Source: Saccharopolyspora phatthalungensis
GTDB lineage: Bacteria > Actinomycetota > Actinomycetes > Mycobacteriales > Pseudonocardiaceae
Length of the DNA stretch: 64,000 nt
Direction of reading: 5' to 3'
Assembly: GCF_014203395.1 (NCBI RefSeq)
Contig: NZ_JACHIW010000002.1
Span: 434,001 to 498,000, forward strand
Shown here: positions 10,677-24,927 of the stretch, in pieces
Layout: every line of letters begins with the position of its first letter
How positions within the stretch are numbered: position 1 is the stretch's first letter
Made by a program: the position numbers and the translations under genes
Notes under the pieces: generated by a model
The model's input: the letters and a program-made list of their open reading frames with translations, nothing else
Databases searched by the model: none
What the model was told of the DNA's origin: nothing

Positions 10677-11546
10677 ATGAGCGAACTGGGAGCTCGGTCC
10701 TTGGAGCAGGTTGTCGACACGGCGCGCTACCCGCTGTCGGATCCGGACAGCGCCGCACGGCAGGCTGCGGTCCGCCAGGCCCGGCACGCCCTCCGGCAGG
10801 ACGGATGCAGCGTGCTGTCCGGCTTCATCCGCTCGTCCCGGCGGGACGACCTGCGCAGGGAAGGTGCCGAAATCGCGCCGCTGGCGCATTACGACGTCGA
10901 ACTCGTCAACGTCTACAACACCGACACGAATGCCGTGCTGCCCGACGACCATCCCGCTCGCACCACGATGACGCGCGGCAACGCGTTCGTGGCCCGCGAC
11001 AACATCCCGCAGCGCTGCATCATTCAGCGGCTCTACACCAGCCCGCTCTTCCAGCGCTTCGTCGCCGACTGCGTCGAGCTGCCCGAGATACACGAGCTGG
11101 CCGATCCGCTGGCCGGGCTCTGCCTCAACGTGGTGCGCCCCGGCATGGATCACCCGTGGCACTTCGACACCAACGAGTTCGCGGTCAGCATGCTCACCCA
11201 GCAACCGGAGGCGGACGGGATCTTCGAGTACTGCCCCAACATCCGGTCCGCGCAGGCGGAGAACTTCGCCGACGTCCGGGCGGTGCTGGACGGTCGCGGC
11301 GAGCACCTGATCCGGCGGCGCACGCTGCGACCCGGCGACCTCCAGCTTTTCAAGGGCCGCTTCTCGCTGCACCGGGTGACCACCGTGCAGGGCCGTGCGG
11401 CGCGCCATTCAGCGATATTCGCCTACAGCGAGCGCCCCGGCGTGATCGGCAGTGTGGCGCGGACCAAGCAGATCTTCGGCCGAGTACTGCCCGAGCACCT
11501 GGCCGCCGAAGGACGAGAGGTGCGGGGCGACCAGCTGCTGGACTAA
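10677..11546 (+). CDS. Fe(II)/2-oxoglutarate oxygenase, BesD/HalD-like, HxD type
   Basis: A 289-residue 2-oxoglutarate-dependent oxygenase. The facial triad is His162-Phe-Asp164 (PWHFDTNEF) with the distal His232 (FSLHRV), and Arg243 is the likely 2OG-binding residue. The fold and surrounding motifs (FEYCPNIR, RPGDLQLFKGR) resemble the BesD/HalD amino-acid halogenase group, but those enzymes have Gly in place of the Asp. An intact Asp predicts hydroxylation rather than chlorination. It starts at ATG 10677 after GAGAGGAC. It is first of three closely spaced genes with a SAM methyltransferase and a carnitine-type acyltransferase. A free amino acid or amine substrate is plausible but inferred. 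Confidence 0.8.
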   Translation: MSELGARSLEQVVDTARYPLSDPDSAARQAAVRQARHALRQDGCSVLSGFIRSSRRDDLRREGAEIAPLAHYDVELVNVYNTDTNAVLPDDHPARTTMTRGNAFVARDNIPQRCIIQRLYTSPLFQRFVADCVELPEIHELADPLAGLCLNVVRPGMDHPWHFDTNEFAVSMLTQQPEADGIFEYCPNIRSAQAENFADVRAVLDGRGEHLIRRRTLRPGDLQLFKGRFSLHRVTTVQGRAARHSAIFAYSERPGVIGSVARTKQIFGRVLPEHLAAEGREVRGDQLLD

Positions 11547-12412: not shown

Positions 12413-14235
12413 CAGTGAACAGCACTCAAGCGTGGTCCACCCGCACCTTCGGCAACGAGGACCGGCTGCCCCGCGTGCCGTTGCCGACCTTGGAGCGCAG
12501 CTGCGAACGGTTCGTCGAGTGGTGCGCGCCGCTGCTGAGTGCGGACGAGCTGGCCACCACAGAGGCCGCGGTGTCCAGGTTTCTGCGCCCGGACAGCCCG
12601 GCCCGCGCCCTGCAAGCAGCGCTGGAGCAGTACGACGCCGAGGAGGGCGTGCGCAGCTGGCTCGACGCTTTCTGGCCGTACCGATACCTGGGCCGCCGCG
12701 ACCGGATCGCACTCAACGCGAACTTTTTCTTCCTGTTCAAGGAAGCGGCGCAGGAGCAGGTGGAACGGGCGGCCGGACTCGTCGCCGCAGCGGTCGACTA
12801 CAAACGACTGCTCGACGAGGAACGCATCCCGCCGATCGTCCAACATGGACAGCCGCACTCGATGGAGCAACAGAAGTTCCTGTTCTCCACCACCCGCATA
12901 CCCGGCCCGGTGCAGGACACGGTCCGCGCGCCGTACTCCGCGGAATGGCCAGGACCGTCCCCGGCCCGCCACATCGCCGTTTTCTTCCGAGGCAACGTGT
13001 TCCGCATGGAGGTACTCGGCCCGGACGGGCAACCGAACCCGCATGCCGATCTCACGGGCGGCCTGCGCGCGATCATGAAGGCCGGTGCGGTGCGGGCCCC
13101 GACGGACACGGCCGTCGGCCACCTGACCACCAAGGCCCGAGCGGAGTGGGCCGCCAGTCGGCAGGCGCTACTAGCCTGCGACCCCGGCAACGCGGACGCG
13201 CTCGACGCGATCGAGACCGCGCTGTTCTGCCTGTGCCTGGAGGATTTCTCGCCCAAGGACACCAAGGATGCTTGCGACCGGCTGCTGCACGGCGACAGCG
13301 GCAACCGGTGGTTCGACAAGGCCGTGTCCCTGGTCGTCTTCGGAGACGGCACGGCCGGTATCAATGTGGAGCACTGTTGCCTGGACGGGACCACGATCCT
13401 CAACTTCGTCGACACGCTGCTGCACCATGCGCCCGAGGCCGGGCACGAGTCGCGGGGATTATCCGCCGTGGATGCGATCGAATTCGCGCTCGACGCCGAC
13501 CTGCGCGCGGATGTCCAGGCAGCGGCCACGTCGTTCGCGGAGCACGTCGACGAAACGGCCACCACTACCCTATGGTTCGAGGACTTCGGGGCGAACCGGA
13601 TCAAGCAGCTGGGCATGTCACCTGACGCTTTCGTGCAGATGGCGTTCCAGCTAGCGCACAAGAGCACCAAGGGCCTGACGGGCGCCACCTACGAGTCCAT
13701 CGCGACCCGCCAGTACCAGAACGGACGCACGGAAGCGATGCGTGTCGTCACGCCCGAGGTGCTGCGCTTCGTGGCCGCCATGGATGACCCCGAGGCGGAC
13801 GCGGCGACTCGCCGCGCGGCGTTTCGCGCCGCCGCGGAAAAGCACGTGGCGCGCGTGAAAGAGTGCCAGGTGGGGCAAGCGCCCGAGCAGCACTTGTTGG
13901 AGCTACAGCTGATCCAGCGGCGGCGCGGCGCGGAACTGGGCGCTAGCGAGCCGCTCGATCTGTACGAGACGCCGGGCTGGCTCACGATGCGCAACGACTA
14001 CCTGAGCACCAGCTCGGCACCGTCGACCAACATCCGGTACTTCGGTTTCGGCTCGACCAGCAGCCAGTGCATCGGCGTCGCCTACGTGCTGCTGCCGGAC
14101 CACTTCAACCTCTACCTGAGCACGCCACGGCCGGTGGCCGACGAGATGTTCGGCTTCGCCGCGAACCTCACCCAAGCGGTCCGCGAACTCCAAGAACTCC
14201 TCGCCGCCGAGTCCACCGAGGGCTTGCCACGGTGA
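12409..14235 (+). CDS. Choline/carnitine O-acyltransferase family protein
   Basis: A 608-residue protein of full carnitine acyltransferase length. The family transfers acyl groups between CoA and the hydroxyl of carnitine or choline. The catalytic His is seen at His322 in GINVEHCCLDG, and the C-terminal substrate-binding motif appears as DYLSTSSAPST with FGFGSTSSQCIGVAYVL after it. The N-terminal LPRVPLPTLERSCERF is the usual family opening. The start GTG 12409 overlaps the methyltransferase stop; GTG 12415 is an alternative. The family is common in eukaryotes and sparse in bacteria. Here it is coupled to an oxygenase and a methyltransferase, suggesting acylation of a dedicated hydroxylated, methylated small molecule. 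Confidence 0.9.
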   Translation: MTVNSTQAWSTRTFGNEDRLPRVPLPTLERSCERFVEWCAPLLSADELATTEAAVSRFLRPDSPARALQAALEQYDAEEGVRSWLDAFWPYRYLGRRDRIALNANFFFLFKEAAQEQVERAAGLVAAAVDYKRLLDEERIPPIVQHGQPHSMEQQKFLFSTTRIPGPVQDTVRAPYSAEWPGPSPARHIAVFFRGNVFRMEVLGPDGQPNPHADLTGGLRAIMKAGAVRAPTDTAVGHLTTKARAEWAASRQALLACDPGNADALDAIETALFCLCLEDFSPKDTKDACDRLLHGDSGNRWFDKAVSLVVFGDGTAGINVEHCCLDGTTILNFVDTLLHHAPEAGHESRGLSAVDAIEFALDADLRADVQAAATSFAEHVDETATTTLWFEDFGANRIKQLGMSPDAFVQMAFQLAHKSTKGLTGATYESIATRQYQNGRTEAMRVVTPEVLRFVAAMDDPEADAATRRAAFRAAAEKHVARVKECQVGQAPEQHLLELQLIQRRRGAELGASEPLDLYETPGWLTMRNDYLSTSSAPSTNIRYFGFGSTSSQCIGVAYVLLPDHFNLYLSTPRPVADEMFGFAANLTQAVRELQELLAAESTEGLPR

Positions 14236-14257: not shown

Positions 14258-15700
14258 TCACAGTGGTCTGGCTGGGTGATGTGCGGCTGTCGATTGCCGC
14301 CGCTGTTTGTGTAGGAGGGCCAGTACGGCGACCAGGATCGCACTGGCGGCCAGTGCGACTGCGGCTACGGTGAACCCGAGCTTGTAACCGTTGACTTGTG
14401 CGATGAGGCTATCGACGCCGGTGGCGAGGTCTGTCTGTTGTCGTCGTATGGCCAGGGTGGCCAGGATCGCTACACCCAGTGCGCCACTGAGTTGCCCGAC
14501 GGTGTAGCCGACGCCGGAACCGAGCCCGGCATCCCGTTCGGAGACACCGTGCAGCATTGCGTTTTGCATGGCGGGGTTGGTGATTCCCATTCCGAGCCCG
14601 ACAAGAATCATGGCTGGGAGCAGGTCCGCTACGTAGGATCCACCGACGCTCAGCCGACTGTACAGAAGCGCCCCCAGGCAGCAGCAGGCAAGCCCGGCCG
14701 AGGCGGCAGCCAGGGGGCCAACGCGAGTGGTGAGCCTGGCCGAGGCCGCCAGGCCCGGCAGGATCATCAGGCAAAGAGGCAGATACGCCAAGCCCGCAGC
14801 CACCGGGGAGTATCCCAGGACCTGTTGCATGTGGAGGGTGGCAAGGAAGAACATCGCCGTGGTGGTGGAAACCAGGAACGCCGCGGAGAAGTTGCCCATG
14901 AGGCGCACTGGATTGGCAAAAAAGCGCAGGGGGACCAGCGGTGCGGCGATCCGTGACTCGACCAGGACGAAACCGGCAATAGCGGTCACACCAACGAGAA
15001 TCGGTCCGAGAGATCCCGAAGGCTGATGGCCGGCCTCAACCAGCCCGTAAACCACGCAGCCCAGGCCCCCGGTGATCAGGACAGCGCCGACCAGGTCGAG
15101 CGAGCTGCCGGGCTTCGCGCTTGCCCTTCGGCCCATTCCGACCAGGCGGGGCACCAGAATCAGCGGCACGAATGCCAGCGGCAGGTTGATGAAGAAGATC
15201 CACCGCCAGTGGATAAGACTGGTCAGGATGCCGGAAAGGACGACACCGGCCGTGGCGCCGACACCGGCCAGACCGCCCCAGATCGCGAACGCCTTGGCCC
15301 GCTCGGTCGGCTCCGTGAACAGCAGGGCGACCAAAGACAGCGCCGCAGGGGAGGCGAATGCCTCGCCGGCGCCTTGAATGAGGCGGCCTGCGATGAGCAT
15401 CTCGATGCTCACGGCGGCACCGCTGACCAGAGAGCCAAGAGCGAACAGTGCGGTTCCGATTAGGAATACGCGGCGACGACCTGCGAGGTCAGCCACCCGG
15501 CCGCCGAGGAGCAGCAATCCGCCGCCCGCGAGCAGGTAGCCGTTGACGACCCAGGTGAGCTGGCTGGCGGTGGCGACAAGGTCCCGTTGGATCGAGGGAA
15601 GGGCGACGTTCACGATCGTGGTGTCGACCAACACCATGAACTGCATGACCCCGAGCACCGCAAGAGCGCGCCACCGATGTGGTTCTGGTGTCTCCCCCAT
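14258..15700 (-). CDS. MFS transporter, DHA2 (14-helix) drug-efflux type
   Basis: A 480-residue inner-membrane transporter with about 14 hydrophobic helices. It has the MFS motif A variant GGRVADLAGRRRVFLIG after helix 2 and an early WVVNGYLLAGGGLLLLGG. The DHA2 family exports drugs and antibiotics by proton antiport. It is the last gene of the long minus-strand cluster and stops 23 bp from the convergent acyltransferase gene. By context it is the likely exporter or self-protection pump for the cluster product. Confidence 0.92.
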   Translation of the reverse strand: MGETPEPHRWRALAVLGVMQFMVLVDTTIVNVALPSIQRDLVATASQLTWVVNGYLLAGGGLLLLGGRVADLAGRRRVFLIGTALFALGSLVSGAAVSIEMLIAGRLIQGAGEAFASPAALSLVALLFTEPTERAKAFAIWGGLAGVGATAGVVLSGILTSLIHWRWIFFINLPLAFVPLILVPRLVGMGRRASAKPGSSLDLVGAVLITGGLGCVVYGLVEAGHQPSGSLGPILVGVTAIAGFVLVESRIAAPLVPLRFFANPVRLMGNFSAAFLVSTTTAMFFLATLHMQQVLGYSPVAAGLAYLPLCLMILPGLAASARLTTRVGPLAAASAGLACCCLGALLYSRLSVGGSYVADLLPAMILVGLGMGITNPAMQNAMLHGVSERDAGLGSGVGYTVGQLSGALGVAILATLAIRRQQTDLATGVDSLIAQVNGYKLGFTVAAVALAASAILVAVLALLHKQRRQSTAAHHPARPL

Positions 15701-15757: not shown

Positions 15758-16816
15758 CTAGGGAGCGGCCTCAATGAGCGTGAATGGGCATAGCGTTTCC
15801 GGTCTTATCAACCGGGTGAGTCGCAAATCCGCCGAAGAGAGCAGGGTCTCGAAGTCCGACAGGGATCGCTCCGCTCCGCCGAAACTCACCAGCATGTGAA
15901 GATCGCTCAGGTAGGCCAGTCGCAGCGCGTCGGCGGGATCCTCTGCGGTCGGCGGGAGAGCTACCTCCAGGATCAGCAGCCTGGAGGTAGCGCCCATGAC
16001 CTTGCGGCAGTTGGCCAAAATCGTGACACTGCGCTGGTCGTCCCAGTCGTGGATGATGCTTTTCAGTAAGTAAAGGTCGCCGCCGTCAGGTATCGAGGCG
16101 AAGAAGTCACCGGTCCGGATTTCGCACCGTTCCGCCACATTGGCTTGCTTAAGAATCGTCCTCGCGTTCTTGACGCCCTCGGCGGTGTCGAAGAGGACGC
16201 CCCGTATGCCTGGGTGAGCGCTCAAGACCCCGGCCAGCAGGGTTCCGTTGCCACCTCCAACATCGACAACGGTCGAGTACCGGGAGAACTCGTACTCCGT
16301 GGCCAACTCGGCGGTCAGGCTCCGGGTGCCCTGGCTCATGGCTTCGTTGAACAGGGTCGACAGCTCGGGTCTGGCGGTCAGGTAGTGAAAAAGGTCCACG
16401 CCGAAGACGCGGTCGAATGCGGGACTTCCGGTTCGCAAGCTGTGGCGCAGCTGTGTCCACGCCTGTCGGAAGATCCCGCCGCCCTGGGCAACGAAGGCAT
16501 ACAGCGAGTCTGGGGTGTCGGTCCGCAGTCGCTTTCCCGCCGGGGTCAGGAAGAACCGGTCGGGCTCGGCCTCGACGAGCAGGCCCACTGCGGTCAATGC
16601 CCGGAGCAACCGGCGCATGGAGGGCGGGTGCGTATCCGTCTGGGCCGCTACCTCGGCACTGCTCAGCGGTGTCGAGCCCAACAGGTCGGCCAGCCGTAGC
16701 TCGATCATCACCTCCACGAGCTCGGAGTTGATGTAGCTCCAGGTCAACTCCAGTAGTGTCCGGTGGCTGGTGAAGTCACGGGAAGACTGCGTCCCGCTCC
16801 TATTCGTCTCGGTCAA
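15758..16816 (-). CDS. SAM-dependent O-methyltransferase (acetylserotonin OMT-like)
   Basis: A 352-residue small-molecule O-methyltransferase. An N-terminal winged-helix dimerisation domain (residues about 25-110, LRLADLLGSTPLSSAEVAAQ) precedes the Rossmann catalytic domain, with VVDVGGGNGTLLAGVL as motif I and KSIIHDWDDQ containing the catalytic His. This architecture is typical of tailoring methyltransferases in aromatic and polyketide antibiotic clusters. It lies 20 bp downstream of the GNAT gene stop-to-start on the same strand and fits a late tailoring step that methylates a hydroxyl group. Confidence 0.92.
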   Translation of the reverse strand: MTETNRSGTQSSRDFTSHRTLLELTWSYINSELVEVMIELRLADLLGSTPLSSAEVAAQTDTHPPSMRRLLRALTAVGLLVEAEPDRFFLTPAGKRLRTDTPDSLYAFVAQGGGIFRQAWTQLRHSLRTGSPAFDRVFGVDLFHYLTARPELSTLFNEAMSQGTRSLTAELATEYEFSRYSTVVDVGGGNGTLLAGVLSAHPGIRGVLFDTAEGVKNARTILKQANVAERCEIRTGDFFASIPDGGDLYLLKSIIHDWDDQRSVTILANCRKVMGATSRLLILEVALPPTAEDPADALRLAYLSDLHMLVSFGGAERSLSDFETLLSSADLRLTRLIRPETLCPFTLIEAAP

Positions 16817-16835: not shown

Positions 16836-17450
16836 TCACGAGCGCGCTCCGCGCTGAGGCTGTCGCACCATGCTCCAGGTCAGTGGCCCGCCTTCCGGCA
16901 AGGCGACTTCAGCGGTGACCTCGAAGCCGAGGCGCCGGTAGATGGCAAGGTTGCGCTTGTCGGAAGTCTCCAGGTAAGCGGGCACTCCAGCCTGGTCGGC
17001 CTGGTCCAAACCGGGGCGGAGGACCGCGCTGCCCAGCCCACGCCCCTGCAACTCTGGGTCGACGCCTACGGTGGCCAGGAACCAGACAGGCTCGGTCGGC
17101 CGATGTGGCCCCAGGGTCTGCTCTGCCTGGAGTGCGGCCTCGGCTCGTTCTCCGGCAAGCGTGGCCATTCGTGGCGCGAGTTCGGCGAAGGCGGCGCCGA
17201 CTCCGGTGCTTTCTGGGGTAGTCCAGACCGCGACCGCGTCGCCGTCGTTGACGATCCAGACTTGGCCGTGTTCCAGGCCGATCCGGTCTACCAGCAGCTG
17301 TTGGGCCTCCCCCACGCGCCGTTCGTGGTCGTCGGCGGAGAGGGTGTGCCGGGTGTAGGGGTAGTCGCGGAACGCGCGGGCAAGCGTGCGTACCGAGTCG
17401 GGGAGATCTGACCGGGTCGCTAGGCGCACGGATACTTCCTCGTTATCCAT
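16836..17450 (-). CDS. GNAT-family N-acetyltransferase
   Basis: A 204-residue GNAT protein. The acetyl-CoA-binding motif A is present as LQGRGLGSAVLRPGLDQA (R/QxxGxG/A), followed by LETSDKRNLAIYRRLGFEV, the usual motif B. The N-terminal half carries the RLATRSDLPDSVRTLARAF opening seen in many actinobacterial GNATs. Family members acetylate amines on small molecules or proteins. In this cluster it could acetylate the aminosugar-like product, either as a biosynthetic or a self-resistance step. The substrate is not predictable from sequence. Confidence 0.88.
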   Translation of the reverse strand: MDNEEVSVRLATRSDLPDSVRTLARAFRDYPYTRHTLSADDHERRVGEAQQLLVDRIGLEHGQVWIVNDGDAVAVWTTPESTGVGAAFAELAPRMATLAGERAEAALQAEQTLGPHRPTEPVWFLATVGVDPELQGRGLGSAVLRPGLDQADQAGVPAYLETSDKRNLAIYRRLGFEVTAEVALPEGGPLTWSMVRQPQRGARS

Positions 17451-17496: not shown

Positions 17497-18186
17497 TCAC
17501 TTTTCGTGGAGGTCCAAGAGATGGTATTCCATGACGCGCTGCACCTCGATCCGGCGAACCCGGCGTAACAACTCGACGCGCATCCCGGCTTTCGCTGCGA
17601 ACTGGTCGAGCAGCTGCCGGTCGCCTAGGTCGGCGGTGCCGATCAGCAACCGCCCGCCCTCGGCCAGGTGGCATCGGGCGCCGGAGATGTAGGCTTCCTG
17701 GCCCTTGTAACCGGGATCGAATACGGCGCCGTGGAGTTCGGAGGACATCGGGAAGTCCTCTGCCACATAGGTCCACGGGACATTCCAGAAGATGGCGTCG
17801 TAGCGATCAGCCGGCTGAAGTGCCTGGAATAGGTCGCTGTGCAAAGCGCGCACGATGTCCTCCACCCCGTGGCGCCGTGCATTGGCCGCGGTGTTGGCGA
17901 CGGCCCGGGGGTTGATGTCCACCGCCGTGACGTGGGCGCAGCCGGACAGCGCGGCGGTCACCGAGATGACACCGGTTCCTGAGCCGACCTCCAGGAAGGA
18001 GCCGCCCGGTGGGTAGGGCAGGATTGACGCCATCACCTCGGTTGCGGCGGTGATGGTTCCCGGGAACACGTCTCGGTGCAGGTCCCATTCCCGTCCCAGC
18101 AGGAAGAAGGAGTCGGGGTAATCCGGTTCGTCCATCGTTCGGGTGAGAACCTGCTCGGCGGCTTCCGGTTCTTCGCGAATGGCCAT
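17497..18186 (-). CDS. Class I methyltransferase with NVPW active-site motif
   Basis: A 229-residue methyltransferase. Motif I is FLEVGSGTGVISVTAALSG and motif II is VTAVDINPRAVANTAANARR. At the active site it has FWNVPWTY, a variant of the NPPY/NPPF motif that positions a nitrogen nucleophile in HemK-like N-methyltransferases. ATG 18186 is preferred because AAGGAGAAACC precedes it. An in-frame start 33 bases upstream exists but lacks a ribosome site. It lies in the same-strand run between the GNAT and aminotransferase genes. An amino-group methylation of the cluster product is a reasonable guess. Confidence 0.83.
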   Translation of the reverse strand: MAIREEPEAAEQVLTRTMDEPDYPDSFFLLGREWDLHRDVFPGTITAATEVMASILPYPPGGSFLEVGSGTGVISVTAALSGCAHVTAVDINPRAVANTAANARRHGVEDIVRALHSDLFQALQPADRYDAIFWNVPWTYVAEDFPMSSELHGAVFDPGYKGQEAYISGARCHLAEGGRLLIGTADLGDRQLLDQFAAKAGMRVELLRRVRRIEVQRVMEYHLLDLHEK

Positions 18187-18254: not shown

Positions 18255-19541
18255 CTACGCGCTCCGGGCGTAATCGACGAGTGCTGAATGGTTTTGATAG
18301 ATTTTTTGGAACGCCACGATGTAGTCGTCGATCAACGACTTGTCCTCCGGCCAGTTGTTGAAGGTCGGCAGCGAAAGCGCTTGGCGCTGGACCCGAGCGG
18401 CGTTGGAATCTGCCGCGGGTACGTTGGCGACCTTCGGGAGGCCGGGGAAGAGCGGGCTCTCTGCTTCGGAGTACAACGGCAGCGTCGCCAGGTCGGGGCC
18501 GGAGGGTGCGCCTATTTCCATGCCCTCGGCTCGCAGCGCCTTGATCAAGACTTCTCGTGTGATTGCGTCCAGGGAGTCCGGCAGGTACAGCGGCTTGTAG
18601 CCGTACCACGCGCCCATGTCGACGTCGTCGGCCACGTACGCGGGTTCGATGTAGGTCACCTCGCTCAGCCGCTCACCCAGGTACTGCAAGCATTTGTGGC
18701 GGTTCTCCTTGCGGGTGGGGAAGGCCGCCAGCGAGTGGCGGGCCACGATCGCGTTAAAGGGCGACATGCGCAGCTTGAGCCCGAACCCGGTTACCCAGTA
18801 GTCGCGCAGTCGACCGTCGATCAGGTCCTCGCGGCAGCGGTCGCGATAGTGCCCCAGCAGGGTCGCCCGGTCGTGAACCTCCGAGTCGTTTGTGACCAGG
18901 ATGCCGCCTTCCCCGGCGTAGATCGCTTTGTTGGCTTGGAGGGAGAAAACCGCGGCGTCGCCGAAGGTGCCGCAGAGGCGCCCCTTGTACCGGCTCCCGT
19001 GGGCGTGTGAACAGTCTTCCAGTACCCGCAGGTCGTGGCGGGAGGCGATGTCCAGGATGGCGTCCATGTCGCACGGATGACCCCACTGGTGGACGGCAGT
19101 GATCACCTTCGAGCGTGGGGTGATCGCCCGCTCCAGGCCGGCCGGGTCTATACACCTGGTCCGCAGATCGATGTCGGCGAGAACGACCTCGCCATGAAGC
19201 GCGAAAACCGGGCTGAGCGCGGCGTGGTAGGTCAATGCGGGGCCCACCACCTCCGTGTCCTCGCGGACCCCGAGCGCGAAGTAGGCAGCCAACAGCGCAC
19301 TGGTACCAGAGTTGAAGGTGACCGCCCACTGGACGCGGTGCTCCAGGAAACGCAGAAAGTCGTTCTCCAGTGCGCGGATTGGGCCGCTGCTGCCGCGGAT
19401 GGAGATGTCGTCGTTGCGCTGGTCGGCCAGCTCGATCAGCTCGGGCTCGTCCGCATCGGGCGGCCAGATCTCGTGAGGCCGGGGCTTGGAAATCGCCGTG
19501 GGACCCCCCAGCAGGGCAAGTTCGTCGCGGACGTCGGTCAT
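18255..19541 (-). CDS. DegT/DnrJ/EryC1-family PLP aminotransferase
   Basis: A 428-residue sugar or cyclitol aminotransferase. The PLP-binding Lys is Lys205 in SLQANKAIYAGEGG, preceded by the PLP-contacting VLEDCSHAHGSRYKGR with the ring-stacking and Asp residues. The family transfers an amino group, usually from Glu or Gln, to ketosugars or inososes in antibiotic pathways. ATG 19541 is chosen: AAAGGA lies ahead of it and the upstream open frame overlaps the neighbouring gene's coding end with different codon bias. Partnered with the nearby Gfo/Idh/MocA dehydrogenase it recalls the NtdA/NtdC oxidation-transamination pair, suggesting an aminosugar or aminocyclitol unit. Confidence 0.92.
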   Translation of the reverse strand: MTDVRDELALLGGPTAISKPRPHEIWPPDADEPELIELADQRNDDISIRGSSGPIRALENDFLRFLEHRVQWAVTFNSGTSALLAAYFALGVREDTEVVGPALTYHAALSPVFALHGEVVLADIDLRTRCIDPAGLERAITPRSKVITAVHQWGHPCDMDAILDIASRHDLRVLEDCSHAHGSRYKGRLCGTFGDAAVFSLQANKAIYAGEGGILVTNDSEVHDRATLLGHYRDRCREDLIDGRLRDYWVTGFGLKLRMSPFNAIVARHSLAAFPTRKENRHKCLQYLGERLSEVTYIEPAYVADDVDMGAWYGYKPLYLPDSLDAITREVLIKALRAEGMEIGAPSGPDLATLPLYSEAESPLFPGLPKVANVPAADSNAARVQRQALSLPTFNNWPEDKSLIDDYIVAFQKIYQNHSALVDYARSA

Positions 19542-19596
19542 CGGCAGTCCTTTCGCTATGGCCATCTGTTGCGGGCAGAGGAAACGCCTGAACGCC

Positions 19597-21807
19597 TCAG
19601 CGGATCCACAGGTCTCGTCCGGCGAAGAAGATCCGGCCGAGCCCGACCGCGTAGAAGCGCAGCAGCATGGTGTGCCGGATCTGGGGTTCGCCGGTCCGGA
19701 TCGCCAGGTCCACGTCGACGTGGCCGCGTGCGGGAACCCGGACCGTCTCGGGCTCCAGACGGAATTCGAAACCGTGCGGCTTGCCCCGGGTGATCCGGGC
19801 ACCGAGGAGCAGCTTCAGGTCTTCGTCACCGGCATTGTCGATGGTGATCACCATGGTGGTGTCGCTCTGCGGGAGCAGCCTGTTGTCGCCCGCGACACTG
19901 ATCCGCACTGACTCGTCCTCGGTGTCGCTGGTCGCCCCGCACACCGGACAACTGATCAGGTACCTACGCAGGTGCGGGCGAAGCAGGGAGCGGTTGACAT
20001 AGCGGTAGACGACCTCCCCGCAGTAGCCGCAGGCCGCCGGGCAAGCGGCGGCCTCCTCAAGGGTGTAGGTGGGCCGATAGGCCTCGACGAAGTGGTACTC
20101 GCGGGTCTCGGTCAGTCGCAGCAGCGTTTCCAACAACAGCCGGTCCAGGTGGCCGCACCGGGCGAGGATGCGGTCGATTGACTTGCGCAAGTCATCGGAC
20201 CCGGTCAGTTCGGACCCGGCGGTTTTGGCTCGCCGAGCCAGGACGGGAAGCTGGTTGGCCATTTCCCCCAGAACCGACCGGGCGCGCTCCAACTTGATGT
20301 CCAAACAGGACAAATTGTCGTAGCGTTCCATCGCGGCAGAAATTCGCTCGGCGTCACTGACCAGGCCTCGTTCGGCCACCACGAGTGTGCATGCCGTCTG
20401 GTGGCCGAGGAGGGGCCGTTCGGTGAAGCCCAACACGAAAAGGTTCGGTTCCCCGTCGATCTCGCCCACCGCGCTGTAGTAGGGCGGGTGACCACCGAAT
20501 CCCGGCGACGGCCGGACCTCCAGCCGACCCCTTTGGTATGCGTGGATGAGGGCCGGGTCTTTCAACGGCATTCGGACGTAGGCGGGCAGGGCGGACTCGA
20601 AGTGCACAAGCATCTGTCCGTTGATCTCCTCGTGCCGCGCCGAGTCCGTTAGCGTGCTCGGCCCGGACGCATAAACCGCTTCAGGATCCCCCATCACGAA
20701 GACCGCGGGAGCGTCGATACCCCATCGGGCCAGATTCTCGTTGACTAGCTCGACAGCCTGCCCCACGCTCAGTCCCTCGTCTAGCAACCGGTGGAACAGT
20801 AGATTCTCAGCGGGGCTTCCGTCTTTGAGCAGCGGACTGGCGACGTAGCTTCCGGCCCAGCCATCGAGGAAGCGCTGGGCGACCGTGAACCGGTTGTGGG
20901 TGCCCAGCAGTTGGGTGCCCAACTTGACGGTCAGACAAGCATTGGCGAAGACCACCTGAGCGGGGATCTGCGCCGGATCGAACCTCCTGGACTCGGGGTA
21001 CACACACTCGTATCCCTGCATGCAGGCCGGCAGGGGGCCTGCGGCCTTCCGAGCTACCGCGAGCTCTGCGGCGTTGTCGGTCAGACCACACAGCAGGTCG
21101 CTGGGGGTAAGCCGGAGGTAATCTTCGCTGCCGTGAGTGATCACGCTCAGGACCCGTTGTAGATCGCTTCGGCTACTCAACGCCTCGGGCTCCACGGCGC
21201 CTTGCGGGTAGCTCGTGAGTCGACCGTCCACCAGCGGCGAATCGCCTTTGAGCAGAGGTGCGATCAGGGTGTCGGCTTCGGCGGGCAAGCACGGGTAGAT
21301 CAGGGTCTTGAAGACGAGTTCGCTGAGCTTGGCGACGGACTCAGCGGCTAATACACCGACTCGTAACCGTGGGAACGCGCGGTGAAGCCGGGCCAGGATG
21401 GCGAAGCCGAGCGCGGAAGACGGTCCGGCGATCGTCAGGTAGCGTGCGCCGCGGTGGCGGCGCACCAAGTCGAGGATTTGTTCGGTGGTGCGTGCGGGTT
21501 CAAGAAAAGCCCTTTTAGCCAGCGCGAAAACCGCCGCGGGGTAGTGGAAGCCGTCCCTTGCCACACAGACCACCAGATGCTCCTGCCGGAGCTGGCTACG
21601 CTCGCGCAGGGCCTCGTGCGGAGGGGGGATGTCTCTTTCGCGGTGCTGAACATCGACCACGGGCAACCCGAGCTTTTTTGCAATCCGCCTGGGCCACAGG
21701 TGCCGATTTGTTGGATCGAAGACAGGCAGGTCGCGAGCGTCAAGTCGGTCGTGCGCTAGCGCATACGCGAGGTAGTCCTCCAGCGTCCGTGTCAATCCGA
21801 TGGTCAT
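19597..21807 (-). CDS. Large caspase-fold (CHAT/C25-like) protein with zinc ribbon
   Basis: A 736-residue protein of no named function. Residues about 110-375 look like a caspase-fold peptidase of the CHAT/gingipain C25 kind. His225-Gly226 is in SVITHGSEDYL, and a candidate nucleophile Cys291 is in VVFANACLT. FTVAQRFLDGWAGSYVAS and LLDEGLSVGQAVELVNENLA follow, as in CHAT proteins. Residues about 589-623 form a zinc ribbon (Cys593-x2-Cys596 and Cys620-x2-Cys623). Residues about 630-736 look like a beta-sandwich. There are no membrane segments. It lies between the aminotransferase and the dehydrogenase in the cluster. Start ATG 21807 has GAGGA ahead. A protease or adaptor role is inferred; it could also be a catalytically dead scaffold. 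Confidence 0.6.
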   Translation of the reverse strand: MTIGLTRTLEDYLAYALAHDRLDARDLPVFDPTNRHLWPRRIAKKLGLPVVDVQHRERDIPPPHEALRERSQLRQEHLVVCVARDGFHYPAAVFALAKRAFLEPARTTEQILDLVRRHRGARYLTIAGPSSALGFAILARLHRAFPRLRVGVLAAESVAKLSELVFKTLIYPCLPAEADTLIAPLLKGDSPLVDGRLTSYPQGAVEPEALSSRSDLQRVLSVITHGSEDYLRLTPSDLLCGLTDNAAELAVARKAAGPLPACMQGYECVYPESRRFDPAQIPAQVVFANACLTVKLGTQLLGTHNRFTVAQRFLDGWAGSYVASPLLKDGSPAENLLFHRLLDEGLSVGQAVELVNENLARWGIDAPAVFVMGDPEAVYASGPSTLTDSARHEEINGQMLVHFESALPAYVRMPLKDPALIHAYQRGRLEVRPSPGFGGHPPYYSAVGEIDGEPNLFVLGFTERPLLGHQTACTLVVAERGLVSDAERISAAMERYDNLSCLDIKLERARSVLGEMANQLPVLARRAKTAGSELTGSDDLRKSIDRILARCGHLDRLLLETLLRLTETREYHFVEAYRPTYTLEEAAACPAACGYCGEVVYRYVNRSLLRPHLRRYLISCPVCGATSDTEDESVRISVAGDNRLLPQSDTTMVITIDNAGDEDLKLLLGARITRGKPHGFEFRLEPETVRVPARGHVDVDLAIRTGEPQIRHTMLLRFYAVGLGRIFFAGRDLWIR

Positions 21808-21845: not shown

Positions 21846-22847
21846 TCAGCACGCGTTGGCCAGCACTGACGGCCGGGGATGCGCATCGGGCCCGCCCTCA
21901 TTGCTCTCGTAGGCGCGTTGGATGACCTGAACCGTGCTGAGCTGGCGCGCGAAGTGCTTGGCCCGGTATTCGCGGTCGTCGAGATGGCGCAGGTACCGCG
22001 CGATCATCCTGTCGACCATGGCCTCCTTGGAGATCGTCACCGTGACCCCGGCAACCCGGGTGCCCCCCGGCGAATACAGGCTCGCCTCCGTTGGGCTGAT
22101 CTCCAGGGAACCGTCGGTGCCCAGAACGGTGAGTCGCTCGACCTTTTCGTGGTTGTGCCGGGAGACGCAAAGGGTGCCCGCAAATCCCTGGTACGGATAG
22201 GAGAAGTAGACACTGACCAGATCTTCGAGTCCTTGACGCCGCATCTCCTCGTAGCAGTGCAAGAAGGCCGCGCGGACCGAGACCGGACTGGCGAACAGGC
22301 CGGCGAGGATGTCAACGAGGTGATACCCCATGTCGAGCATGACCCCGCCCAGGGCCTTGTCGCTGTCGGCGCGCCAGCCGGAGGTCATCTTCGCAAGGTT
22401 GATGTGGTAGTCGTAGGCAAACCAGTACGGCTCTCCCGTGCGGTGGAGATTTCGGCTGGCGAAGTCGAATGCCGGGTTGAAGTTCCGCTGAACCAGCGTG
22501 TAGACACTCCGGTCGGCGGCGTCGGCCATCTTGACGAGGTCCCGCGCATCCTGCTCGGTAACGGCGAACGGCTTCTCCTTGAGGATGTGGACACCGTGCT
22601 GCAGTAACGCCCTGCAACCCGAGAAGTGCGTCTGATGTGGAACCGTCACCAACGCCACATCGAAGTCGAGGCACGCCAGCGCGTCCTCGAGGTTGTCAAA
22701 AAACGGCAGTCCTAGCCGCCCGGCCAACCGGGAAGCATCTGGCGCTATGTCGACCACACCGACGACGTCTGTATATCGATGCAGGATGGGCAAGTACTCT
22801 TGGCCCTGTTTCCCCGCGAATCCAACGACAACTGAGCGATGACGCAC
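21846..22847 (-). CDS. Gfo/Idh/MocA-family NAD(P)-dependent oxidoreductase
   Basis: A 333-residue dehydrogenase with an N-terminal Rossmann domain (VVVGFAGKQGQEYLPIL), the family KEKPFAV motif whose Lys is catalytic, and the C-terminal alpha/beta domain with GGVMLDMGYHLVDIL carrying the conserved Asp and His. The family oxidises or reduces sugar and inositol hydroxyls. It precedes the caspase-like gene by 38 bp on the same strand and probably supplies the keto substrate for the DegT aminotransferase. The sugar is unknown. Confidence 0.92.
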   Translation of the reverse strand: MRHRSVVVGFAGKQGQEYLPILHRYTDVVGVVDIAPDASRLAGRLGLPFFDNLEDALACLDFDVALVTVPHQTHFSGCRALLQHGVHILKEKPFAVTEQDARDLVKMADAADRSVYTLVQRNFNPAFDFASRNLHRTGEPYWFAYDYHINLAKMTSGWRADSDKALGGVMLDMGYHLVDILAGLFASPVSVRAAFLHCYEEMRRQGLEDLVSVYFSYPYQGFAGTLCVSRHNHEKVERLTVLGTDGSLEISPTEASLYSPGGTRVAGVTVTISKEAMVDRMIARYLRHLDDREYRAKHFARQLSTVQVIQRAYESNEGGPDAHPRPSVLANAC

Positions 22848-22891: not shown

Positions 22892-23437
22892 CTAGTGATC
22901 CGGTAGAACCCTGGTCCCGTCGGGATCAGTGACGGTGATATCCCGCCGTCGGGACGCCGGTACGCGATCGAGCCATTCGTGCGCCCTGGCGACAATCTCT
23001 CCGATGAAGGCACTGCCGGTTCGTGCCACGTTTTCTTCCAGCAAGCCGATTTCGCTGGGTCCGATCCACGAGAACTCGGTGTGCTTGTCCTGTTCCAGCC
23101 GTGGGGCGTCCAAGTCGCCCGCGACCTCTACCAGGAAGTCGAGTTCACAATGGACCTCGCCGTTGCCGTTCCAGGTCGATCGCCCTAGCAGGGCCAGGAC
23201 CCGCCCCAGGCGCCATCCGGTCTCCTCTTCGATCTCGCGATCCAGCGCGCCTAGGACGTTCTCGCCGGGGTGTACGGAACCGCCCACTACATCCCAGCAC
23301 CCGGGGAAGAGGGTACGGTTCTCCGAACGCCGCTGGATGAACACTCGGTCGCGTGCGTCTCGGATCAGCGCGCCCACGACTAGGCGGGGGCCGGCTGGCA
23401 GTGATCCGGTAGGCCCCTGGTCGAGAGGCGAGGTCAT
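22892..23437 (-). CDS. Nudix hydrolase
   Basis: A 181-residue Nudix protein with a complete Nudix box: Gly53, Glu59, then REIEEETGW at residues 67-75 (GX5EX7REUXEEXGU). The family cleaves nucleoside diphosphates linked to another moiety. The start overlaps the stop of the M28 peptidase gene (ATGA, 23434-23437), so the two are translationally coupled. In this cluster it may process an NDP-sugar or a pyrophosphate intermediate, or act as a house-cleaning enzyme. The substrate is not evident. Confidence 0.9.
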   Translation of the reverse strand: MTSPLDQGPTGSLPAGPRLVVGALIRDARDRVFIQRRSENRTLFPGCWDVVGGSVHPGENVLGALDREIEEETGWRLGRVLALLGRSTWNGNGEVHCELDFLVEVAGDLDAPRLEQDKHTEFSWIGPSEIGLLEENVARTGSAFIGEIVARAHEWLDRVPASRRRDITVTDPDGTRVLPDH

Positions 23438-24927
23438 CGCCCACCCCCCGAAACGGTGGGCCGCTCGGCGTTGGAATAGTGCTCGAAGACGCGCAGGAAC
23501 GCGTCGGCGTGAGCGCTGACTTTCGCGGGGTCGTAGCTGTCAGCGTTGTCGCACGGCAGGTGGTAGCAGCGGTCGTAGGACTCTCCCGCCAGACCACCCC
23601 AGCGGGCCGCCTCCTCGGCAGTCTTGCCTTCGAAGGAGCCACCGAACAGCCCGCCCATCGGGATGCCGGCTTCGGCGAAGGGCGCGTAGTCGGATCGGCC
23701 GTCCAGACACCATGTGCCCGGTTCGGTTCCTGTTGCCCGGAATGCACCGAGAAACCGATCGCGAATCGCCACGGAACCTGGTGGGGCGCCCCGGCCAGGC
23801 GCGAGGGCCAGTGCGTGGTCTCCTTCCGCGCTGCGGCATGGGGTATTGCTGTCCAGGACGAACAGGCCACGGTTCGGGCCGCCGATCATCTCCAGGTTGA
23901 GGTAGAGCCCGATATTCGCCCGCTCCTGCGGTGAGAGGGCCTGAACGTAGTGTTTGGCTCCGACCATGCCGAACTCTTCGGCTGACCAGAACGCGAACAC
24001 CAGCCGGTTACGTGGTGGGATGGGTGCAGTGGCCTGTCGAAGCGCGGCCTCCAACAACACGGCGGCGGCGATGCCGTTGTCGTTGATGCCGGGTCCGGTG
24101 GGCACGGAATCCAGATGCGCCCCGGAAACGACTGTCCGGCCCGGGTCTCCCGACGTGCTCTCGGCAAGCAAGTTCTCGGTGGAGCGCTGCTCGGTCAATG
24201 AGCGCAGCACCATGGTGACCTTGAGGTGCCGCTCCGCCACCCCCAGCAGCGCCTGGCCGGTTTCCGGACTCACGCCGCCGATCGGGATCTCTGCGGTCTC
24301 GGGTTCCCACAACCATCCGTACAGCTCGCCGGGGCGATCGTTGATGACGATCACTGCGGTAGCGCCGGCACCGGCGGCGACCGCCTGCTTCTGATCCAGC
24401 GTGCAGCCCCCGTTGAGGACGAGTGCGATTCGTCCTCGTGCCACCGCGTCGGCGTATGACTCCGCCGTGCACCCCTGCCGTTTGGCCTCGGTTCCAGTCA
24501 CGGGAGCCAGTTCAGCGGTGGTGCCACCTGCGGGTGTCGAGGGCGAATAGCCGACCACGTTGATGCGATGGTGGGTCCCGCCTCCCACCGTGAGGTCGTA
24601 TTCCAGCGCCTGGGTGTAGAGAAAGCCGAACCGCTGACGCGTGACTCGGTAGCCAACTTTGGCCAGCAGCGTCTCGAAGTAGCTGATTGATTGGTCGTAT
24701 CCACGAGATCCCGCGGCCCGATGGCCATCGTTGTGATCGGCAAACGACTGCAGCGCCGCGACGTGTTCACCCACATGCCCCAATTCGATCCTGGTCGAGC
24801 CTGTCCCCGAATCGCCCGGGGTCGCGCGGTTGGACAGCATCACCACAGATGCGGACAGAGCGGCCACGACGACCAGGACGACAGCCGCCACGAGCGGAAA
24901 TCTCCTCGGTCGAAAATGTTTCAACAT
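23434..24927 (-). CDS. Secreted M28-family zinc aminopeptidase with PA domain
   Basis: A 497-residue exported metallopeptidase. The N-terminus MLKHFRPRRFPLVAAVVLVVV is a basic stretch followed by a hydrophobic signal or anchor. A PA-type insert lies at about residues 130-230. The M28 metal ligands are visible in order: SGAHLDSVPTGPGINDNG (His and Asp), FWSAEEFGMVG (catalytic Glu and ligand Glu), GRSDYAPF (Asp) and CYHLPCDN (His). It removes N-terminal residues outside the cell. ATG 24927 overlaps the P450 stop by one base (TGATG) and has GGGGG ahead of it. In a metabolite cluster it could activate an exported peptidyl or aminoacyl prodrug. Confidence 0.9.
   Translation of the reverse strand: MLKHFRPRRFPLVAAVVLVVVAALSASVVMLSNRATPGDSGTGSTRIELGHVGEHVAALQSFADHNDGHRAAGSRGYDQSISYFETLLAKVGYRVTRQRFGFLYTQALEYDLTVGGGTHHRINVVGYSPSTPAGGTTAELAPVTGTEAKRQGCTAESYADAVARGRIALVLNGGCTLDQKQAVAAGAGATAVIVINDRPGELYGWLWEPETAEIPIGGVSPETGQALLGVAERHLKVTMVLRSLTEQRSTENLLAESTSGDPGRTVVSGAHLDSVPTGPGINDNGIAAAVLLEAALRQATAPIPPRNRLVFAFWSAEEFGMVGAKHYVQALSPQERANIGLYLNLEMIGGPNRGLFVLDSNTPCRSAEGDHALALAPGRGAPPGSVAIRDRFLGAFRATGTEPGTWCLDGRSDYAPFAEAGIPMGGLFGGSFEGKTAEEAARWGGLAGESYDRCYHLPCDNADSYDPAKVSAHADAFLRVFEHYSNAERPTVSGGGR

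Follow-up and report, generated by a model that had tools for sequence, protein, structure and literature searches.

A predicted caspase/gingipain-fold protein family with an invariant cysteine insert in actinobacterial biosynthetic loci

The gene and its predicted fold

Most of what is known about caspase-fold enzymes concerns proteolysis, whether in cell death, in virulence or in defence. The protein described here is a relative with the clan CD fold that carries a novel insert and occurs in a novel setting. It is encoded by Saccharopolyspora phatthalungensis within a stretch of 64,000 nucleotides (contig NZ_JACHIW010000002.1, positions 434,001 to 498,000), henceforth the window. Its open reading frame (ORF) of 736 amino acids (aa) starts 38 bases past a Gfo/Idh gene and ends 31-55 bases ahead of a DegT gene, the range reflecting alternative DegT starts. 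The motifs named in the original prediction (His225, Cys291 and a four-Cys ribbon) are all present, and the gene is laid out as follows.

19597..21807, minus strand: 736-aa protein with a predicted caspase/gingipain fold and a zinc ribbon, without a known family
20650..21588, minus strand: residues 74-386, predicted gingipain-like subdomain pair
21133..21135, minus strand: His225, putative dyad histidine, 27/33 members
21004..21090, minus strand: Cys240, Cys262 and Cys268, invariant cysteines of an insert that separates His225 from Cys291, with a C-x5-C knuckle, putative metal site
20935..20937, minus strand: Cys291, putative nucleophile, aligns with the CHAT cysteine, 33/33 members
19939..20031, minus strand: four-Cys zinc ribbon, residues 593-623
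19600..19914, minus strand: C-terminal beta-sandwich, residues 632-736, immunoglobulin/macroglobulin-like

The protein matches nothing above cut-off in Pfam, NCBIfam or PADLOC, its best match among PDB sequences has an E value of 0.13, and neither a viral structure library (E <= 0.001) nor a plasmid collection returned a match. The zinc ribbon fits the pattern C-x2-C ... C-x2-C exactly in the window protein and a looser one (C-x1-3-C, last letter Cys or His) in 31 of the 33 family members defined below; no Pfam zinc-ribbon model recognises it above cut-off. A PBZ zinc finger (PF10283) was considered and rejected, as the matches are at chance level (best E 2.3, in 2/33 members) and no conserved pair of histidines follows C-x5-C.

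The predicted structure has the caspase/haemoglobinase fold that characterises clan CD, which bears out the caspase/C25-like fold proposed from motif order. Its nearest structures are the gingipains of peptidase family C25, followed by separase and CHAT proteases. Model residues 74-382 superpose on RgpB over 259 residues at 2.7 A, reproducing the two-subdomain gingipain fold, with a predicted strand (217-223) preceding His225 and another (283-289) preceding Cys291. At the level of sequence, profile-profile comparison detects homology to CHAT (PF12770) over residues 281-361 with E 7.9e-8 and negative controls, and the His-Gly and x-x-Cys motifs retain their CHAT/clan CD sequence context. In direct searches neither PF12770 at its curated cut-off nor PF01364 (C25) matches the window protein or any of the 33 members, and the protein is therefore filed as a member of neither family. 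Across 22 family-carrying genomes PF01364 matched four places, none of them a family locus. A separate ORF in the window's own genome (L161, on contig C2) matches PF01364 above cut-off (E 2.9e-5) but could not be aligned with the family by hhalign (probability 0.5%), whereas a CHAT-like protein of the same genome (L162) did align (probability 47.7%, E 1.9e-4). The link to C25 is therefore one of fold, and that to CHAT one of both fold and sequence.

Compared with the gingipains RgpB and Kgp (peptidase C25, clan CD), the family is invisible to PF01364, places its His and Cys 66 positions apart with the three-Cys insert between them, and carries a zinc ribbon, and no secretion signal is seen by eye on the window protein. 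It departs likewise from CHAT (PF12770), TPR-CHAT/Csx29 and separase in that PF12770 matches 0/33 members and no CRISPR or defence context was noticed. As computation, the predicted fold and the family are solid.

Distribution and conserved residues

A scan of GTDB contigs recovered five relatives, from S. megasporus, S. silaceus, S. harbinensis, S. monomycini and Nocardiopsis kunsanensis. With the single sequence as query, only its own genome matched among 41 genomes of relatives, and 3/394 genomes of the class. Profile searches, which covered the window's own phylum, reached further. A profile of six sequences (A1, E <= 1e-3) matched 6/394, 11/394, 3/150 and 5/200 genomes and reached distant members, many of its matches being short and confined to the C-terminal part. 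One of 15 rows (A2, E <= 1e-6) matched 23/131 and 4/100 genomes, its matches including three CHAT proteins (L063, confirmed by PF12770, and L064 and L071, assigned on by-eye motifs), and a third (A3, E <= 1e-5) matched 4/71 and 1/70. Since few genomes matched in each search, the family is patchy within the genomes searched.

Conservation was read from 33 members: the window protein, L005-L009, L033-L041 and L072-L090 minus L082, which the family search did not return. L087 was not returned either and was included for its Cys motif, its profile match covering only the C-terminal part, so its cysteines do not count as independent evidence. Left out were a fragment (L052), the three CHAT proteins, short C-terminal-only matches and two further A3 matches. 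Cys240, Cys262, Cys268 and Cys291 are present in 33/33 members, and residues 1-386 hold no further invariant Cys, His, Asp or Glu. The original prediction that His225 and Cys291 would be conserved among homologues therefore stands in full for the cysteine and in part for the histidine, missing in six members. In most members the His-Cys pair looks catalytic, yet the Cys persists where the His has gone.

Gene neighbourhoods

The window's clade comprises the window and the five relatives L005-L009, each of the latter seen up to 10 kb either side of the gene. DegT and Gfo/Idh/MocA genes accompany the family gene in all six loci. The neighbours in the window, with their occurrence in the clade, are:

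21846..22847, minus strand: Gfo/Idh/MocA oxidoreductase, 6/6 loci
18255..19565, minus strand: DegT-type aminotransferase, 6/6 loci
17497..18186, minus strand: HemK/PrmC-like methyltransferase, 5/6 loci (not L007)
16836..17450, minus strand: GNAT acetyltransferase, 6/6 loci
15758..16816, minus strand: O-methyltransferase, 4/6 loci
14258..15700, minus strand: major facilitator superfamily (MFS) exporter, 4/6 loci
22892..23437, minus strand: Nudix hydrolase, 4/6 loci (blastp of rough gene calls)
23434..24927, minus strand: M28 peptidase with PA domain and, by eye, an N-terminal hydrophobic segment, 5/6 loci (blastp of rough gene calls)

Judging by its enzyme families, the cluster probably makes an amino sugar or aminocyclitol that is methylated, acylated and exported, and the M28 peptidase with its hydrophobic segment would fit a product whose amino acid is trimmed outside. 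Kanosamine is made by NtdA and NtdC together with a phosphatase. The clade resembles that set in its DegT and Gfo/Idh enzymes and in an inositol-monophosphatase-like gene found in 5/5 related loci; unlike it, the window was not found to contain that phosphatase gene, and the cluster enzymes are only distant kin of the named models. A conserved carrier or precursor peptide in the gaps of the window's cluster was sought and rejected, as 0/18 small-ORF candidates match the five related loci at E <= 0.01.

Other genes in or near these clusters deserve mention in their own right. A HalD-family (PF23169) oxygenase at 10677-11543 of the window carries by eye an H-x-D pattern, which marks a hydroxylase rather than a halogenase and suggests the former here. 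At 12415-14232, near the cluster, lies the divergently oriented gene for a protein of the carnitine acyltransferase family (PF00755, E 2e-163), unusual in a bacterial metabolite cluster. The edge of the S. monomycini cluster (L009:1062-2183) encodes a threonyl-tRNA synthetase core of 373 aa (TIGR00418, E 2e-112, just below cut-off) that might be a self-resistance copy.

Beyond this clade, 28 distant loci of 18 kb each (L041, 12 kb; L073, 17.8 kb; L076, 7 kb) fall into 13 clades by grouping at 40% identity, L082 being assigned manually to the L077 clade according to its blastp matches. Genes of three ligase types, adenylation/non-ribosomal peptide synthetase (NRPS), ATP-grasp and YcaO, were counted with seeds taken from the family loci themselves. 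Seeds from another clade detect such genes at 20/28 loci and in 11/13 clades, against 3/40 control stretches of 18 kb placed at arbitrary round coordinates in 15 searched genomes (Fisher p 4e-8 by locus, 3e-7 by clade); the controls are mostly from Streptomycetaceae, and some family loci come from other families. With any seed the count rises to 25/28 (L037, L076 and L087 negative), the 'adenylation' matches in L089 and L090 being possibly spurious frames. Examples are L-amino-acid ligase domains in L039 and L077, YcaO in L084 and an NRPS adenylation domain in L088. The family thus recurs in biosynthetic loci, and so contradicts the earlier view that biosynthetic clusters do not ordinarily include such proteins.

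Further company was observed at several of these loci. XcbA/XcbD-type coenzyme M genes lie next to an adenylation-like gene and the family member at L074:2893-5277, and L039 and L040 carry near theirs what look by eye like HisRS paralogues and an S66-peptidase-like gene. A cassette of KamA-like radical SAM enzyme, ATP-grasp ligase, methyltransferase and MFS protein recurs in L078-L080, L082, L086, L089 and L090, where the family member has a CHAT-like LSAC motif.

A putative role in acyl or amide chemistry

The fold, the conservation and the gene neighbourhood are computed, whereas catalysis, substrate, metal and cellular location are inferred. We tentatively favour, at somewhat below even confidence, a cytoplasmic cysteine enzyme with the clan CD (caspase/gingipain) fold, belonging to a family of actinobacteria that has no name yet and that would act in specialised-metabolite pathways through acyl or amide chemistry. 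What the distant clades have in common is that amino or carboxylic acids are activated there, and the simplest role to suit them all is that of a cysteine enzyme transferring or cleaving acyl groups. Cys291, aided by His225, would accept an acyl or aminoacyl group from a pathway intermediate, either activated or amide-linked, hold it as a thioester and hand it on to water or to an amine, which here would belong to the aminosugar that the Gfo/Idh and DegT enzymes make. A metal on Cys240, Cys262 and Cys268 would steady a loop beside the active site, while the zinc ribbon and the beta-sandwich would place a partner that carries the substrate. In lincosamide biosynthesis CcbD and LmbD form an amide on an aminosugar via a cysteine-protease-like Cys-His site, CcbD working with a carrier protein (PMC12945683). 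They demonstrate that nature uses such a step and serve here as an analogy, the likeness lying in the proposed logic alone, a Cys-His enzyme making an amide on an aminosugar.

Several results weigh against this enzymatic role or the fold beneath it. The best Foldseek row has a low TM-score (0.34), and gingipains are absent from the 50 Foldseek rows listed, surfacing only in a second look with VIA. A first model, built from six sequences (mean predicted local distance difference test score, pLDDT, 52), had no confidence in the core (below 50 across 167-349), and owing to this low pLDDT it was used for the C-terminal sandwich only. His225 is replaced by Ala in four members and by Phe and Leu in one each; the Ala members have a His four residues further on, and the Phe and Leu members a Cys at that place. 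On the core tree the His changes on about three branches, and for two of these well-supported forks leave no other placement; of the sister proteins L039 and L040, L040 alone retains the His. Since all four cysteines persist where His225 is lost, Cys291 may instead be a metal ligand. Locus seeds found none of the three ligase types in the window, nor in any of its five relatives except L009, which has an acyl-CoA-ligase-like gene about 6 kb from the family gene, and the neighbourhood argument therefore comes from the distant clades.

The loss of His225 and the invariance of the cysteines also shape the alternatives. That the protein is a dedicated protease, whose substrate in the pathway might be a carrier peptide, a partner enzyme, a regulator or a target of resistance, agrees with the endopeptidases among its nearest folds (gingipain, separase, TPR-CHAT and legumain) and with a dyad retained in 27/33 members. 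We consider it unlikely, given that the His is lost in 6/33, that partners vary between clades and that no small precursor or carrier ORF is conserved; proteolysis of a carrier, target or partner enzyme, as originally envisaged, gained no direct support, and an acyl-transfer role fits equally. If Cys240, Cys262, Cys268 and Cys291 instead bound one metal through four thiolates where the active site used to be, the protein would be a non-catalytic scaffold or sensor that assembles or regulates biosynthetic enzymes. This would explain why these four are the sole invariant Cys, His, Asp or Glu of the first 386 residues and outlast repeated loss of His225, and would suit the zinc-ribbon motif further along in 31/33. 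A pure scaffold would nevertheless have no need of His225, which 27/33 members keep at deep divergence, nor of His-Gly and x-x-Cys in their CHAT/clan CD context, and we regard it as quite unlikely. Caspase-like peptidases are frequent effectors of bacterial conflict systems (PMC7159879), but an anti-phage or self-killing protease placed in the cluster by chance is very improbable and was rejected: the neighbours are biosynthetic, and PADLOC is negative for the window protein and gives two marginal single-member matches among the 33 (best E 0.036).

To return to the favoured acyl or amide chemistry, its broader form is more doubtful, though conceivable: an undescribed caspase/gingipain-fold family whose catalytic Cys lies next to a thiolate metal site or within it, recruited repeatedly in actinobacteria for making or breaking the amide bonds of natural products, and thereby the caspase-fold equivalent of condensation enzymes and of transglutaminase-like ones. 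A full-text literature search, judged by titles and abstract openings and with subscription journals mostly outside its coverage, showed nothing on such a family among the papers listed. What emerges is a diverse caspase-fold family that neither Pfam nor NCBIfam models and that has as its neighbours enzymes for amino-acid activation or azoline formation. Its invariant three-Cys insert offers a sharp test of how a metal site and a cysteine nucleophile coexist. Were proteolysis its function, peptide-carried chemistry would operate in clusters where it is unsuspected; were it acyl transfer, the family would give antibiotic pathways a new route to amide formation and could be used to guide genome mining.
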